DNA from: Aminobacter aganoensis
Lineage (GTDB): Bacteria; Pseudomonadota; Alphaproteobacteria; Rhizobiales; Rhizobiaceae
Assembly: GCF_014206975.1 (NCBI RefSeq)
Contig: NZ_JACHOU010000001.1
Span: 558,001-622,000 of the forward strand
Length of the DNA: 64,000 nt
Direction of reading: 5' to 3'
Made by a program: the position numbers and the translations under genes. The notes beneath the pieces were generated by a model, which searched no databases, was not told the origin of the DNA, and saw only the letters and a list, made by a program, of their open reading frames with translations. Shown here one piece after another: positions 37,333 to 45,964 of the stretch. Position 1 is the first letter of the stretch, and every line of letters begins with the position of its first letter.

Positions 37333-37361
37333 CAGGTCATATAGGATTGAAAGGACTTGAA

Positions 37362-39701
37362 ATGAACGATGCCAGCATCGGCAGGACGCGCTTTCGCGTC
37401 GGCGGCATGGACTGCGCCTCCTGCGCGACCAAGATCGAAAACGCGGTGACCCGCCTCCCCGGGATTACCGAAGTTGGCATCTCGGTCTCGGCAGGCACCA
37501 TGACGGTGTCGCATCGCGGCCCGGCCCCGACCACCGAGATTTCGCGGCAGGTCAAGGCGCTCGGCTATTCCGTCGCTTCGCTGGGCGCGGCGCGGACCGC
37601 GGAACCGAAGGCCAAGGCGCACGAGCACGGCCCGGGCTGCAGCCACGATCATGATCACAAGGGGCATGACCATTCAGGTCATGATCACTCAGGCCACGAC
37701 CATCCGGGACACGACCATTCCGGGCATGATCACAAGCACGATCACTCGGGTCACGATCACACGGGCCACGGCCACGGCGGTGTTGCTGCCCATGACGAAC
37801 CTGCCGACGCGGGCCACAACCACTTCGACCTCGATGACGGACCCTGGTGGAAAACCCGCAAGGCGAAGATGACCATCGCCTGTGGCACGGCGCTTGTCGC
37901 CGCCTACGCCATCGGTCAGCTGATGCCGCAGATCGGACACTGGGCCTTCCTGGTGGCGCTGGCCGTCGGCCTGATCCCCGTCGCCCGCCGCGCCTATGCC
38001 GGCGCCATCACCGGCACGCCTTTCTCCATCGAGACGCTGATGACGATCGCCGCCGTGGGCGCGGTCTTCATCGGTGCCACCGAGGAAGCGGCGATGGTGG
38101 TACTGCTGTTCCTCATCGGCGAGCTGCTCGAGGGCGTTGCTGCCCGCCGCGCCCGCGCCAGCATCCGCGGCCTAGCCGACCTCGTCCCCAAGACCGCCTT
38201 GGTCGAAGAAGGTGGCGTGACGCGTGAAGTCCCAGCCGACTCGCTGGCGCTCGGCTCGGTGATCCTGATTCGCCCCGGCGACCGGGTCGCGGCCGACGGC
38301 ACCGTCGTCGAAGGCTCGAGCACGCTCGACGAAGCGCCTGTCACCGGCGAAAGCGTGCCGAAGCTGAAGAGCGTCGGCGACGCCGTCTTTGCCGGCACCA
38401 TCAACACCGACGCCGTGCTCAAGGTTCGTGTCACGGCAACCTCGGCCGACAACACCATCGCCCGCGTCATCCAGCTGGTCGAGGAGGCCCAGGAGAGCAA
38501 GGCCCCGACCGAGCGCTTCATCGATCGCTTCTCGCGCTACTACACGCCCGCGGTGCTTGTCGTCGGCGCGCTGGTCGCCGTCATGCCGCCGCTGGTTGCC
38601 GGTGGCGACTGGCAGGAATGGATCTACAAGGGCCTCGCCATCCTGCTGATCGGCTGCCCCTGCGCCCTGGTCATCTCGACACCCGCTGCCATTGCCGCCG
38701 GCCTGTCCGCTGGCGCGCGCCGCGGCCTGCTGCTCAAGGGTGGCGCCGTGCTGGAAGGGATGCGCCGGGTGACCTCGGTCGCGCTCGACAAGACCGGCAC
38801 GCTGACCGAAGGCAAGCCGAAGGTGACGGACATCGTCGCCATCGGCCGTTCCGAGGCAAATGTCCTGTCGCTGGCCGCAGCACTCGAGACCGGCTCCAGC
38901 CACCCGCTGGCGGTTGCCATCCTCGGCCGCGCCAAGGCCGATGGCGTGCCTGTGCCCCCGGCCGTGGCGGCGAAGGCCGTCGCCGGCAAGGGCGTCACGG
39001 CCAAGGTCGGCGGCGAAGAGGTGTTCCTCGCCTCCCCGAATGCCGCCGACGATCTCGCGGCTCTCAGCGCCGAGCACAAGGAACGGATTGCGGCCTTCAA
39101 TGCCGAGGGCAAGACCGTCTCGGTGCTTCTGGTCGACAGCAAGGCAATCGGCCTCATCGCCATGCGCGACGAGCCGCGTCCCGACGCCGTCGCCGCCCTA
39201 GCGAGGCTGAAGGCCGAAGGCATCTCAACGGTGATGCTGACCGGCGACAACGAGGCCACCGCACGTGCCATCGGCAAGGGCCTCGGCATCTCGGTACGAG
39301 CCGGCTTGCTGCCCGACGACAAGCAGCGCATCGTTCGCGAGTTGCAGCAGCAGGGCCAGGTGGTCGCCAAGGTCGGCGACGGCATCAACGACGCCCCTGC
39401 CCTTGCGGCCGCCGATTTCGGCATCGCCATGGGCGGCGGCACCGACGTCGCGCTGGAGACCGCCGATGCAGCCATCCTCCATGGCCGCGTCAGCGATATC
39501 CCCGACATGATCGCACTTTCGAAGTCGGTGATGGGCAACATCACCCAGAACATCACCATCGCGCTCGGCTTGAAGGCCGTGTTCCTGGTAACGACGATCA
39601 TTGGCCTCACCGGCCTGTGGCCGGCGATCCTGGCCGACACCGGCGCGACGGTCCTTGTGACGGCAAACGCCATGCGGCTGCTCGCCTGGCGCGGCCGGTG
39701 A
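37362..39701 (+). CDS. heavy-metal P1B-type ATPase (Zn/Cd/Pb exporter)
   Basis: This 779-aa pump has an N-terminal HMA domain with GGMDCASC (Cys18/Cys21), a His/Asp-rich linker (about residues 93-141) and eight expected membrane helices. Further marks are the CPC ion site (432-434), the phosphorylated Asp476 in DKTGTLTEGKP, SSHPLA, and the hinge GDGINDAPALAAADFGIAMG. The CPC motif with this regulator and linker points to ZntA/CadA-type Zn2+, Cd2+ and Pb2+ export rather than copper. The ATG at 37362 has AGGA seven bases upstream. A strong terminator follows. Confidence 0.92.
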   Translation: MNDASIGRTRFRVGGMDCASCATKIENAVTRLPGITEVGISVSAGTMTVSHRGPAPTTEISRQVKALGYSVASLGAARTAEPKAKAHEHGPGCSHDHDHKGHDHSGHDHSGHDHPGHDHSGHDHKHDHSGHDHTGHGHGGVAAHDEPADAGHNHFDLDDGPWWKTRKAKMTIACGTALVAAYAIGQLMPQIGHWAFLVALAVGLIPVARRAYAGAITGTPFSIETLMTIAAVGAVFIGATEEAAMVVLLFLIGELLEGVAARRARASIRGLADLVPKTALVEEGGVTREVPADSLALGSVILIRPGDRVAADGTVVEGSSTLDEAPVTGESVPKLKSVGDAVFAGTINTDAVLKVRVTATSADNTIARVIQLVEEAQESKAPTERFIDRFSRYYTPAVLVVGALVAVMPPLVAGGDWQEWIYKGLAILLIGCPCALVISTPAAIAAGLSAGARRGLLLKGGAVLEGMRRVTSVALDKTGTLTEGKPKVTDIVAIGRSEANVLSLAAALETGSSHPLAVAILGRAKADGVPVPPAVAAKAVAGKGVTAKVGGEEVFLASPNAADDLAALSAEHKERIAAFNAEGKTVSVLLVDSKAIGLIAMRDEPRPDAVAALARLKAEGISTVMLTGDNEATARAIGKGLGISVRAGLLPDDKQRIVRELQQQGQVVAKVGDGINDAPALAAADFGIAMGGGTDVALETADAAILHGRVSDIPDMIALSKSVMGNITQNITIALGLKAVFLVTTIIGLTGLWPAILADTGATVLVTANAMRLLAWRGR
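37638..37784 (+). repeat. histidine-rich coding repeat within the metal ATPase
   Basis: About eight imperfect units encode (G)HDHSGHDH-like peptide repeats between the HMA domain and the first membrane helix. Unit length is about 15 nt, with synonymous and Ser/Pro/Thr changes. It probably binds zinc. Copy number may vary between strains. Confidence 0.85.
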
Positions 39702-41468: not shown

Positions 41469-42209
41469 ATGACCGAACGCAGCCTGATCGCCACGTCGTT
41501 TCTCGCCCTTCCCGGCTCAGCCCCGGTCGAATGGCGAATCGAACCCGGCCTTACCCCCTACGACCAGGCACTCGCGATCATGGAAGAGCGCGCCGACGCG
41601 ATTCGCCAGGGCAGTGCCGGCGAGATGGTCTGGCTGGTCGAGCATCCGCCGATCTACACCGCCGGCACCAGCGCCCAGGAACAGGATCTGGTCGAGCCCG
41701 ACCGCTTCCCCGTCTTCAAGACCGGCCGCGGCGGCGAATACACCTATCACGGCCCCGGCCAGCGTGTGGCCTACGTCATGCTCGACCTCAAGCGCCGGCG
41801 CGAGGACGTGCGCGCCTTCGTCGCGGCACTCGAGGCCTGGATCATATTGGCGCTCGCCGCCTTCAACGTGAAGGGCGAACGCCGCGAGGACAGGGTCGGT
41901 GTATGGGTGGTCAGACCCGACCGCCCGGCCCTGCCGGACGGTTCACCCGCGGAAGACAAGATTGCCGCCATCGGCATACGCCTGCGTCGCTGGGTGAGCT
42001 TCCACGGCATCGCCATCAACGTCGAACCCGAGCTCGGCCACTTCTCCGGCATCGTGCCTTGCGGCGTCACCGACCACGGCGTCACCAGCCTTGTCGACCT
42101 TGGCCTGCCGGTGACGATGAGCGACCTCGACGTTGCGCTCAAGGCGGCGTTCGAAGAGATATTCGGACCGGCAGACATGATCGCCGAGAGCGTCCGAAAG
42201 ACCGCCTAG
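41469..42209 (+). CDS. lipB: octanoyl-(acyl-carrier protein):protein N-octanoyltransferase
   Basis: LipB (246 aa) moves the octanoyl group from acyl-carrier protein to lipoyl domains of 2-oxoacid dehydrogenases and GcvH. The family motifs are present: [39 protein letters not shown], the catalytic Lys in [19 protein letters not shown], and the catalytic Cys in GIVPCGV. The ATG at 41469 is the first that fits the family N-terminus. It is monocistronic. Confidence 0.94.
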
Positions 42210-42353
42210 GAACCCGCCTGCCGCCCCCAACATTGCGGCGGGCTTCAAGCGCAGTGTCGAGCCCTCGGCTCATTCCGGCATCGGGATATGTCCCGGTGCC
42301 GCATTCCTCATCGGTTCAGAACCCCATCGAAAAGAGGCCGAACCGGCATTCAA

Positions 42354-42440
42354 TCACAGTGCGCCGATCCACATCGCCATGGTGACGAGGAAGGTGCTCA
42401 TGCAGACCATCGAAATGACATCCTGTACCAGCTCAGCCAT
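42354..42440 (-). CDS. 28-aa membrane peptide under LexA-type control, SidA-like candidate
   Basis: A 28-codon frame starts at ATG 42440 and ends at TGA 42354. The peptide begins MAELVQDVISMVCM and continues as a hydrophobic stretch to MAMWIGAL. One membrane helix spans about residues 8-28, with acidic residues (Glu3, Asp7) at the N-end, no Lys or Arg and six Met. AGGAG sits six bases before the ATG. Immediately upstream are three GTTC half-sites seven bases apart and a TTGACA hexamer. Size, helix and SOS-type promoter recall SidA, the 29-aa division inhibitor of Caulobacter. Homology to SidA is not claimed; function is inference. Confidence 0.72.
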   Translation of the reverse strand: MAELVQDVISMVCMSTFLVTMAMWIGAL

Positions 42441-42462
42441 CTGTCGCTCCTGTTTTTAATAT

Positions 42463-42497
42463 GTTCGTAATTTGTTCTATTTTTGTTCAAATGTCAA
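42463..42497 (-). promoter_or_regulatory. triple LexA half-site (SOS box) and -35 element
   Basis: GTTC occurs at 42463, 42474 and 42485, each pair separated by exactly seven bases (GTTC-N7-GTTC-N7-GTTC). That is the alphaproteobacterial LexA box, here as two overlapping boxes. TTGACA (42497-42492 on the minus strand) adjoins them, so LexA would cover the promoter of the 28-aa peptide. No plus-strand gene lies nearby. Confidence 0.8.
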
Positions 42498-42666
42498 CGT
42501 GCGCCAATTGCATTCGGGCGCCGGCGTTCGCGCCGAGCGATTCGACAGTAAATGAAGGGTTTATGCGCGCGAACGACCACCGCCGCGCGTTAACGAACGC
42601 GCGTCAGCCATCACCGGCATTGAAGTGAAGTCTGCAGGAATAGGCGCCCGGGGTGACCGCCCGCAG

Positions 42667-43356
42667 CTAGCGCAGCGGAACGATCTTGCCCTCGGCGAGC
42701 GTCACGCGGCGGTCCATGCGCCCGGCCAGTTCGTGGTTGTGCGTGGCAATCAGCGCCGCCAGACCGGATTGCCTGACGAGCGCCGAAAGCGCGTCGAAGA
42801 CATAGCCTGCCGTCACCGGGTCGAGATTGCCGGTCGGCTCGTCGGCCAGCAGCACCAGCGGCGCATTGGCCACCGCTCGTGCGATCGCCACGCGCTGCTG
42901 CTCGCCGCCGGAGAGCTCGGACGGCCGGTGCTCGGCGCGCTTGCCGATCTTCATGTAGTCGAGCAGTTGCGCCGCACGCTCGCTCGCCTGGGCAGGGCTG
43001 AGCCCCTTCAGCAGCTGCGGCATCATCACATTCTCCAGCGCCGAGAATTCGGGCAGCAGGTGATGGAACTGATAGACGAAGCCGACGTCGTTGCGGCGGA
43101 TCGCGGTACGCTCGTCGTCCGAAAGCCGCCCGCAGGCGCGTCCGTTCAGGATGACGTCGCCGCCGTCCGGGCGCTCCAGCAGGCCGGCGGTGTGCAGCAG
43201 CGTCGACTTGCCGGCGCCCGACGGCGCCACCAACGCCACCATCTCGCCCGGCGTGAGCGAGAAGTTGGCGTCATTCAGGATCGTCAGCTTGCGCGAGCCC
43301 TGCTCGTAATGGCGTTCGACGCTCTTGAGTTCGATAACGGCTTCAGTGGCCATCAT
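42667..43356 (-). CDS. lolD: lipoprotein-releasing ABC transporter ATP-binding protein
   Basis: This 229-aa ABC ATPase has the Walker A segment APSGAGKS (44-51; the usual first Gly is Ala), the signature ELSGGEQQR, Walker B VLLADEP, and the LolD/MacB-type GNLDP. It powers release of outer-membrane lipoproteins from the inner membrane to LolA. The first of two ATGs overlaps the lolC stop. Confidence 0.92.
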
Positions 43357-44639
43357 TCGTACCTCAGCGCTTCGACCGGATCGAGCGTTGCCGCCCGCCA
43401 TGCCGGAAACAGTGTCGCGAGGAACGACAGCACAAGCGCCATGAGAACCACCGATACCGTCTCACTCACATCCATCTTGGCCGGCAGCTGGCTGAGGAAA
43501 TAGAGCTCGGGATTGAACAGAACCGTGCCCGACAGCCACGAGAAGAACTGCCTGATGCGCTCGACATTGAGGCAGATGACGACGCCGAGCAGCACGCCGG
43601 CAATGGTGCCGGTCATGCCGATGGCCGCGCCCGTCATCAAGAAGATGCGCATGACGGCACCCCGCGTCGCGCCCATCGTGCGCAGGATGGCGATGTCGTG
43701 ACCCTTGTCCTTCACCAGCATGATGAGGCCTGAAATGATGTTCAGCGCCGCGACCAGCACGATCAGCGTCAGGATCATGAACATGACGTTGCGTTCGACC
43801 TGCAGCGCGGAAAAGAAGGTCTGGTTGCGCTGGCGCCAGTCGGTCAGGAAGATCGGCCGCTGGGCCGCCTCCTCCACCTTGGTCTTCAGCGCATCGACAT
43901 CGTCGGGATTGTCGACATAGATCTCGATCGAGCCGACCTTGCCTTCGGAATTGAAGTAGAGCTGGGCCTCGTTGAGCGGCATGAAGACGATCGAGCTGTC
44001 ATACTCGGACATGCCGACCTCGAAGATGCCGGAGATCGGATAGGCTTTCGCCCGCGGCGTCGTGCCCATCGGCGTGACGTCGCCGTCTGGCGAGATCAGC
44101 CGGATGGAATCGCCCAGCACCAGGCCCATGTTCTCGGCCATGCGCTTGCCGATGACGACGCCCTCGCCCTCGTCGAAGCCGACGATCGAGCCCTGCTTGA
44201 TGTTGTTGGCGACCAGCGTCACCTTGCCGAGGTCGCTGCCCCTGATGCCGCGCACCAGCGCGCCGGCACCCGCGCCGACATTGCCCTGTGCCAGCACCTG
44301 GCCCTCGACCAGCGGGATGGCATATTTCACGCCGGCAACGCCGTTGATGCGGTCGGCGACCGCCGAATAGTCCTCGAGCGGCGTATCGATCGCGGTCACG
44401 ACCAGATGGCCGTTGACGCCGAGGATACGGGTCAGGAGTTCGGCGCGAAACCCGTTCATCACCGCCATCACCACGATCAGCGTGGCGACGCCGAGCATGA
44501 TGCCGAGGAACGAGATCGAGGCGATGACCGAGATCACCGTTTCCTTGCGCTTCGAACGCAGGTAGCGCCAGGCCACCATGCGCTCGAACACCGAGAACGG
44601 CCCGGCTCCGGCTGGCTTGGCCGCCGTCACTTGGCTCAT
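43353..44639 (-). CDS. lolC: lipoprotein-releasing ABC transporter permease
   Basis: This 428-aa permease of the LolC/LolE type has one N-terminal helix ([29 protein letters not shown]), a large periplasmic domain and three C-terminal helices with [21 protein letters not shown] single LolC/E-type gene (LolF-like) is usual in alphaproteobacteria, so a homodimer is likely. The start overlaps the proS stop and the stop overlaps lolD. Confidence 0.92.
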
Positions 44640-45964
44640 GCCTTGGCGCCCAGCTTGGCGAGTGCGGCAGCCACCGGCAGCGTTTCGCGCTCGCCGGTCT
44701 TGCGGTTCTTGATCTCGACCTCGCCGGCAGCAGCACCGCGCGGACCGACGATGACCTGCCACGGCAGGCCGATCAGGTCGGCGGTGGCGAACTTGCCGCC
44801 GGCGCGCTGGTCGGTGTCGTCATAGAGCACGTCCTTGCCAGCGGCTTCGAAGGCCTTGTAGGCCTCGTCGCAGATCCGGTCGCACTCGGCGTCGCCGACC
44901 TTCATGTTGATCAGGCCGATGTCGAACGGAGCCACCGCTTCCGGCCAGATGATGCCGTTCTCGTCATGGCTCGCCTCGATGATCGCGGCGATCAGCCGCG
45001 ACGGGCCGATGCCGTAGGAGCCCATCGAGACGAAATGCTCCTTGCCGTCGGGGCCCATGACCTTGGCGCCCATCGGCTTGGAATACTTCTCGCCGAAGTG
45101 GAAGATGTGGCCGACCTCGATGCCGCGCGCCGACACCTTGTCGGCCTCGGGCACTGCATCCCAGGCCGCTTCGTCGTGCATCTCTTCGGTCGCCGCATAA
45201 GGCGTCGTCCACTGCTTGACGATGCCGTCGATCTCGCCGTCATTACCGAAATCGGTTTCGGCGCCAGGCACTGGCAGCGCCAGGTAATCGCGGTGGCAGA
45301 ACACCTGGCTTTCGCCGGTTTCGGCCAGGATGATGAACTCATGGCTCAGGTCGCCACCGATCGGGCCGGTATCGGCACGCATCGGGATAGCCTGCAGGCC
45401 CATCCGCGTGAAGGTACGGAGATAGGAGACGAACATCCTGTTGTAGGCGGCCTTGGCGCCCTCGAAGTCGAGGTCGAAGGAATAAGCATCCTTCATCAGG
45501 AATTCGCGGCTGCGCATGACGCCGAAGCGCGGGCGCACCTCGTCGCGGAACTTCCACTGGATATGGTAGAGGTTGAGCGGCAGGTCCTTGTACGTCTTGA
45601 CGTAGGACCGGAAGATTTCCGTCACCATCTCTTCGTTGGTCGGGCCGAACAGCATGTCGCGCTCGTGCCGGTCCTTGATGCGCAACATCTCCTTGCCGTA
45701 GTCGTCGTAGCGGCCGCTTTCGCGCCACAGGTCGGCCGACTGGATCGTCGGCATCAGAATTTCAAGCGCTCCGGCACGATCCTGCTCTTCGCGCACGATG
45801 CGGCAGATCTTGTCCAGCACGCGCTTGCCCAGCGGCAGCCAGGAGAAGCTGCCGGCCGCCTGTTGCCTGATCATGCCCGCACGCAGCATCAGCCGGTGGG
45901 AAATGATGTCCGCCTCGCGGGGATTTTCTTTCAGGATAGGCAGGAAATAGCGCGACAGACGCAT
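44636..45964 (-). CDS. proS: prolyl-tRNA synthetase, short form
   Basis: This 442-aa class II synthetase starts [15 protein letters not shown]. Motif 2 ([21 protein letters not shown]) and motif 3 ([20 protein letters not shown]) are clear. It lacks the ~180-residue editing insert between motifs 2 and 3 found in E. coli ProRS, as is usual in Rhizobiales; editing of mischarged Ala-tRNA then needs a free-standing deacylase. ATG 45964, with GGAA six bases upstream, is preferred to in-frame ATGs upstream. Confidence 0.93.

Follow-up and report, generated by a model that had tools for sequence, protein, structure and literature searches.

The window analysed here is a 64,000-nucleotide stretch of the genome of the soil bacterium Aminobacter aganoensis. 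It carries a short frame on its minus strand, with lolD upstream and lipB at the place where dnaE1 would be, as judged from relatives described below. The features of this locus are as follows.

41469..42209, plus strand: lipB (NF010921, above cut-off), convergent with the peptide gene and downstream of it
42354..42440, minus strand, stop codon included: gene for a probably SidA-like peptide of 28 aa (sequence, conservation in the genus and pN/pS)
42447..42451, minus strand: AGGAG, a ribosome binding site that precedes the ATG by six bases (read from the sequence)
42463..42488, minus strand: GAAC in three direct repeats spaced by N7, which may form overlapping LexA boxes (sequence; kept in relatives)
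42492..42497, minus strand: TTGACA, putative −35 element, adjoining the LexA box (read from the sequence)
42667..43401, minus strand: lolD, upstream of the peptide gene and on the same strand (best match TIGR02211 LolD, below the curated cut-off)
43353..44762, minus strand: lolC/E permease (TIGR02212, above cut-off)

Translation of the minus-strand frame 42354-42440 gave the peptide MAELVQDVISMVCMSTFLVTMAMWIGAL (28 codons plus stop). Along the coding strand, TTGACA is followed by the three GAAC repeats, AGGAG and ATG; on the plus strand the repeats read GTTC and start at 42463, 42474 and 42485, at a spacing of exactly N7. The preliminary description had reported a 28-codon frame with AGGAG six bases before its ATG, and three GTTC at exact 7-nt spacing beside TTGACA, and both were confirmed by direct reading. 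Its single hydrophobic stretch was also found, the best 19 residues of the window peptide having a Kyte-Doolittle mean of 1.88. The acidic N-terminal end ascribed to the peptide stood for the window copy, with no K or R and two D/E among its first nine residues, but did not extend to many of the relatives, which carry R or K at position 6. Searches of Pfam, NCBIfam and PHROGs with the window peptide returned nothing useful, and no dnaE match was detected anywhere in the 64-kb window. Elsewhere in the window, a long frame on the plus strand (37347-39701) resembles by eye a heavy-metal P-type ATPase and includes a long GHDHSGHDH repeat.

The GTTCN7GTTC sequence is given as the LexA motif of Caulobacter in PMC12700426. 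A single GTTC-N7-GTTC pair is not rare within the 64 kb, as three were seen against 1.57 expected and at least three appeared in 26 of 100 shuffles. In contrast, the triple site is rare (one seen against 0.02 expected; at least one in 2 of 100 shuffles), in agreement with the earlier view that it is improbable by chance. The lexA gene of the same genome is preceded by GAACACAACTGGAAC, which equals GAAC-N7-GAAC, and its recA gene by GAAC-N7-GTAC, as read from the sequence. One further triple GTTC-N7 site, GC-rich, is present in the genome at G000:C14:82338-82363 (L002).

The triple repeat, TTGACA, AGGAG and the 28-aa frame were all kept in 10 of 10 Aminobacter genomes searched, the genome under study included, and Aminobacter ciceronei (L227) has the same peptide. 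A frame broken in close relatives together with loss of the repeats, named beforehand as evidence against the proposal, was sought among these 10 genomes and was absent. Within the genus the pooled pN/pS of the peptide frame was 0.15, and its 21 variable columns fell at the third codon position in 16 cases, at the first in five and at the second in none. Across 842 pairs among 79 named loci, pN/pS was 0.26 in the peptide frame, while the two alternative frames gave 1.0 and 4.0. The peptide frame is under purifying selection.

A strict sequence pattern gave three matches in 199 Rhizobiaceae genomes, one being the genome under study and the other two looking like chance. The same 199 genomes were searched with a profile of the genus peptides. 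At E <= 1 the profile matched 127 genomes, many of the weak matches resembling noise, and 72 genomes showed no match. The family count comprises 81 loci out of 85 with E <= 0.004 and none of nine weaker hits also retrieved; the four left out of the 85 belong to G039, G037, G120 and G177, for which neighbours of the same genus score near-equally. A perfect GAAC-N7-GAAC was located within 95 nt upstream of the profile match in 71 of the 81 loci, while elsewhere in the same loci it occurred in 7 of 6,791 windows of 101 nt. A neighbouring gene was lolD, lipB or dnaE in 73 of 81 loci, with lolD upstream in 55 and dnaE1 downstream in 17. As these loci were found by protein and picked regardless of the box, apart from a preference for short frames noted below, the box and the locus give separate support. 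Control of the peptide gene by LexA, as first proposed from the window alone, is well supported by this conservation, and LexA presumably binds at the box.

The ten box-less loci of the family fall into three kinds. Four carry an altered box (L022, L060, L079 and L092), and one is cut by a contig end (L062). The remaining five (L068, L081, L086, L087 and L094) have no lolD, lipB or dnaE match nearby; three of them are in prophage-like operons, one is beside a weak Mob_Pre match and one is in another context. At L094 (G059) the related peptide adjoins the gene with this weak, sub-cut-off Mob_Pre match, perhaps a mobile element.

With a wider profile, matches were obtained in 66 of 397 genomes of the order at E <= 0.05, and the further hits within the family carried a perfect box in 11 of 13 cases. 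Outside the family, 32 of 48 listed places were examined, 12 chosen by the tool and 20 of the 36 weaker ones chosen by us in favour of short open frames; the box was present in 25 of these 32 and dnaE1 downstream in 29, counting L116, L129 and L132, which have neither and look like false hits. A pattern including the box identified at least 80 named loci, for example in Sinorhizobium, Rhizobium, Agrobacterium, Mesorhizobium and Shinella, and, among the matches listed, in Martelella, Nitratireductor, Brucella (B. tritici) and others. The 80 stretches examined, of 116, were excluded from the box counts because this pattern contains the box. The common order is lolC-lolD-peptide-dnaE1, with lipB in place of dnaE1 in some relatives, as in the window. 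Judged by eye, the full order is present in Sinorhizobium medicae (L258) and Brucella tritici, and the peptide followed by dnaE1 in Agrobacterium salinitolerans. The relatives are 26-37 aa long; in 33 diverse members F17 is invariant and D7 is found in 90% or more. Conserved short frames behind GTTC-N7-GTTC, the search for which had been suggested at the outset, are found across Hyphomicrobiales, mostly at one locus.

At E <= 0.1 the class-wide search yielded hits in 25 of 385 genomes, most of which looked like noise on inspection. Of 29 listed places 12 were viewed, and four of these stood out by a short frame that has the box and dnaE1 (L152, L153, L156 and L157), two of them outside Hyphomicrobiales; as they were counted after the boxes had been seen, their four of four for box and for dnaE1 are no evidence on the box. 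Search of the order of genome G652 yielded matches in 43 of 150 genomes at E <= 0.5, leading to peptides upstream of dnaE1, some preceded by lolD. Fourteen places were viewed in this order and seven noise-like ones dropped; the eight loci kept outside family f115 (box in seven, dnaE1 in eight) were chosen partly by eye and are not leaned on. Family f115 appears to be Caulobacteraceae, and its genus g522 Caulobacter. A profile including the peptides from the order of G652 matched 124 of 149 f115 genomes at E <= 0.5. The other 25 gave no match at this threshold, and genus g554 accounts for 14 of the 20 listed. All 22 genera of f115 are represented in the tally, but g554 and g557 only weakly (best E 0.028 and 0.20), and SidA may have been lost or replaced in g554.

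In f115, 39 loci were examined, 30 picked as best by the tool and nine picked by us from g522. The dnaE1 gene was located just downstream in all 39, the dnaE match lying 110-221 nt from the peptide start. A perfect box was present in 24 of the 39 and absent from 15, and several other loci have near boxes such as GAAC-N7-GAAT. The NCBIfam model NF033228 (cell division inhibitor SidA) matched all 22 aligned f115 peptides at E <= 1; 19 scored above its cut-off of 35 bits and three just below, at 34.8, 33.0 and 30.9. By eye, six of the nine g522 loci show the order lolC or lolD, nucleoside hydrolase on the other strand, SidA and dnaE1, and the one g522 hydrolase tested matched PF01156. This order fits the published tags, sidA being CCNA_02004 (PMC11034885), CCNA_02005 a nucleoside hydrolase (PMC3667746) and dnaE CC1926 (PMC1839093); across the two numberings, CC1926 would adjoin CCNA_02004. 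A published LexA box was found in six of nine genomes examined for it, and twice in only one. At seven loci of the Caulobacter genus (L364-L367, L369, L371 and L372), a perfect box GAACATCTTGTGAAC lies farther upstream of the SidA gene and a degenerate GAAC-N7-GAAT closer to it.

We compared the peptides of the two orders by profile-profile alignment. With hhalign, 39 Rhizobiaceae peptides matched the 22 f115 peptides at 89.2% (E 2.2e-6 over 20 columns). A broader set reached 94.7% (E 6.3e-8). Both values are to be read with the stepwise widening of the profiles, by which later sets are selected for likeness, and with our own choice of some of the loci examined. The window peptide gave no match to NF033228 even at E 10, and it is outside the SidA equivalog as this model is drawn. 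From the broad set, 2 of 33 rows matched NF033228 (best E 0.038); none of seven Hyphomicrobiales peptides rescanned at E <= 10 matched it, and none of six peptides of other groups, four of them from the order of G652. Direct pairing of the window peptide with two SidA-type peptides gave weak similarity (permutation p 0.03-0.04). Since the window peptide has no NF033228 match, it is tied to SidA by its locus, promoter and length and by a profile match of modest strength.

SidA of Caulobacter (29 aa) has in common with the wider peptide family a length of about 29 aa, one hydrophobic helix, the GAAC-N7-GAAC promoter, the lolD-peptide-dnaE1 locus, D/E7 and F17. In contrast to SidA, the window copy scores below the NF033228 model, lacks basic N-terminal residues, is followed by lipB instead of dnaE1, and has no FVWM, a motif invariant in the 22 f115 peptides. 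SidA had been put forward as an analogue of the window peptide in spite of the lack of evident sequence identity. This is supported and extends beyond analogy, as the same place in another order holds peptides that NF033228 names SidA. The window peptide is SidA-like and, as judged from locus and promoter, probably an orthologue of SidA.

SidA is described as a 29-aa inner-membrane protein and the main SOS-induced division inhibitor in Caulobacter, acting through FtsW and contacting FtsN (PMC4211646), and sidA as an early gene with a promoter stronger than that of uvrA (PMC12700426). The promoter layout, the coding selection, the wide conservation and the locus common to NCBIfam SidA are read directly from the genomes. 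On this basis the window gene quite probably represents SidA as it occurs in Hyphomicrobiales, an inner-membrane peptide that would be induced in the SOS response and delay division. LexA would bind to GAAC-N7-GAAC(-N7-GAAC), just past the −35 element, and block transcription. After DNA damage, RecA would trigger cleavage of LexA, and the 28-aa single-helix peptide would be made and would insert in the inner membrane. There it would prevent the FtsW/FtsI/FtsN septal wall complex from working until the DNA is repaired; the FtsW/FtsN target and the arrest of division are carried over from the published work on SidA. DidA of Caulobacter is likewise a small damage-induced membrane inhibitor of division (PMC4211646), but it is SOS-independent, under the control of DriD, and binds FtsN. 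YneA, SosA and ChiZ are also SOS- or damage-induced membrane inhibitors of division; YneA is reported to act on FtsW (PMC13396833) and, unlike the window peptide, has a LysM domain besides its membrane helix.

Second copies of the peptide, such as MRDLIEDALSFIAVSTFIATFAVWAAYLAEKV, lack the box. The copy at L081 is located upstream of DUF3799 (PDDEXK-like) and RecT genes, as identified with Pfam, and genes resembling these neighbours by eye are present at L086 and L087. The weaker hit at L096 (E 0.014) precedes a Cro/C1-type HTH gene and a DUF3799 gene. Seven IMG/VR contigs (L375-L381) carry such frames, with neighbours judged by eye and one piece of only 1,126 bases; in none of the seven does the box occur within 150 nt upstream of the motif matched. 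The phage copies resemble the host peptide MTDLVHDVLSFISVSLFIATFAIWVSAI, which was found both in B. tritici and in one of the genomes that carry such copies. When the peptides were compared with phages and plasmids by tblastn, no match was obtained, although the low-complexity filter may mask such peptides. As a guess, phages may have captured the host peptide to hold back division. Tentatively, and at somewhat less than even chance, a LexA-run division checkpoint of SidA type would go back to the common ancestor of at least Caulobacterales and Hyphomicrobiales; temperate phages of some rhizobial relatives would have captured the peptide, freed it from LexA and placed its expression under their DUF3799-RecT operon, so that the host would stop dividing while the phage grows.

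Instead of a divisome inhibitor, the gene might encode a membrane-depolarizing peptide of the SOS-induced type to which TisB and DinQ belong (PMC8145889, PMC3567139), which are likewise short single-helix peptides. Its size, its one hydrophobic stretch and the LexA box all fit this reading, which is nevertheless unlikely. The window peptide has no K/R among its first nine residues, F17 is invariant and D7 nearly so, and the locus matches that of SidA, all of which argue against this reading; TisB and DinQ differ from the window peptide in locus and charge. No known antitoxin RNA was found near the window gene, a search of 42100-42900 against Rfam, which holds known RNA families only, giving no match above chance.

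It is quite unlikely that the gene acts as a leader peptide, or as an upstream frame, to adjust dnaE1, the replicative polymerase gene, during SOS. In most of the groups examined outside the family, dnaE1 does indeed follow the peptide frame at a short distance and with the same orientation, and sORF25 of S. meliloti, which may or may not be a counterpart of this frame, is placed in the dnaE1 5′-UTR by a ribosome-profiling paper that considers some such 5′-UTR sORFs as possible upstream ORFs (PMC10117765). However, the window has no dnaE match, and at 24 of the 81 family loci lipB follows within 300 nt, the sequence examined shows no match to dnaE, and the box is kept in all 24, which counts against such a leader. 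Furthermore, selection acts on the amino-acid sequence, and the phage copies sit in other operons. That a LexA-regulated small RNA or the promoter is the conserved element and the frame incidental is highly improbable, since this reading, in spite of the well conserved promoter region, is largely refuted by the pN/pS values of 0.15-0.26 and the codon-position pattern.

The conserved gene most likely encodes a LexA-controlled division inhibitor of SidA type, as judged from sequence. SidA itself is already known; apparently new are its spread across Hyphomicrobiales, the common locus and the copies in phages, the part of the open-licence literature surveyed having mentioned no relative of SidA from outside Caulobacter. 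Peptides of the Hyphomicrobiales branch escape the NCBIfam SidA model in its present form. As naturally diverged SidA-like variants, they could help to map the way in which a single helix inactivates FtsW. The literature surveyed also offered no answer to how division is halted after DNA damage in rhizobia, agrobacteria and their relatives; with a short conserved gene whose position can be predicted, this question can be tested directly in laboratory strains.
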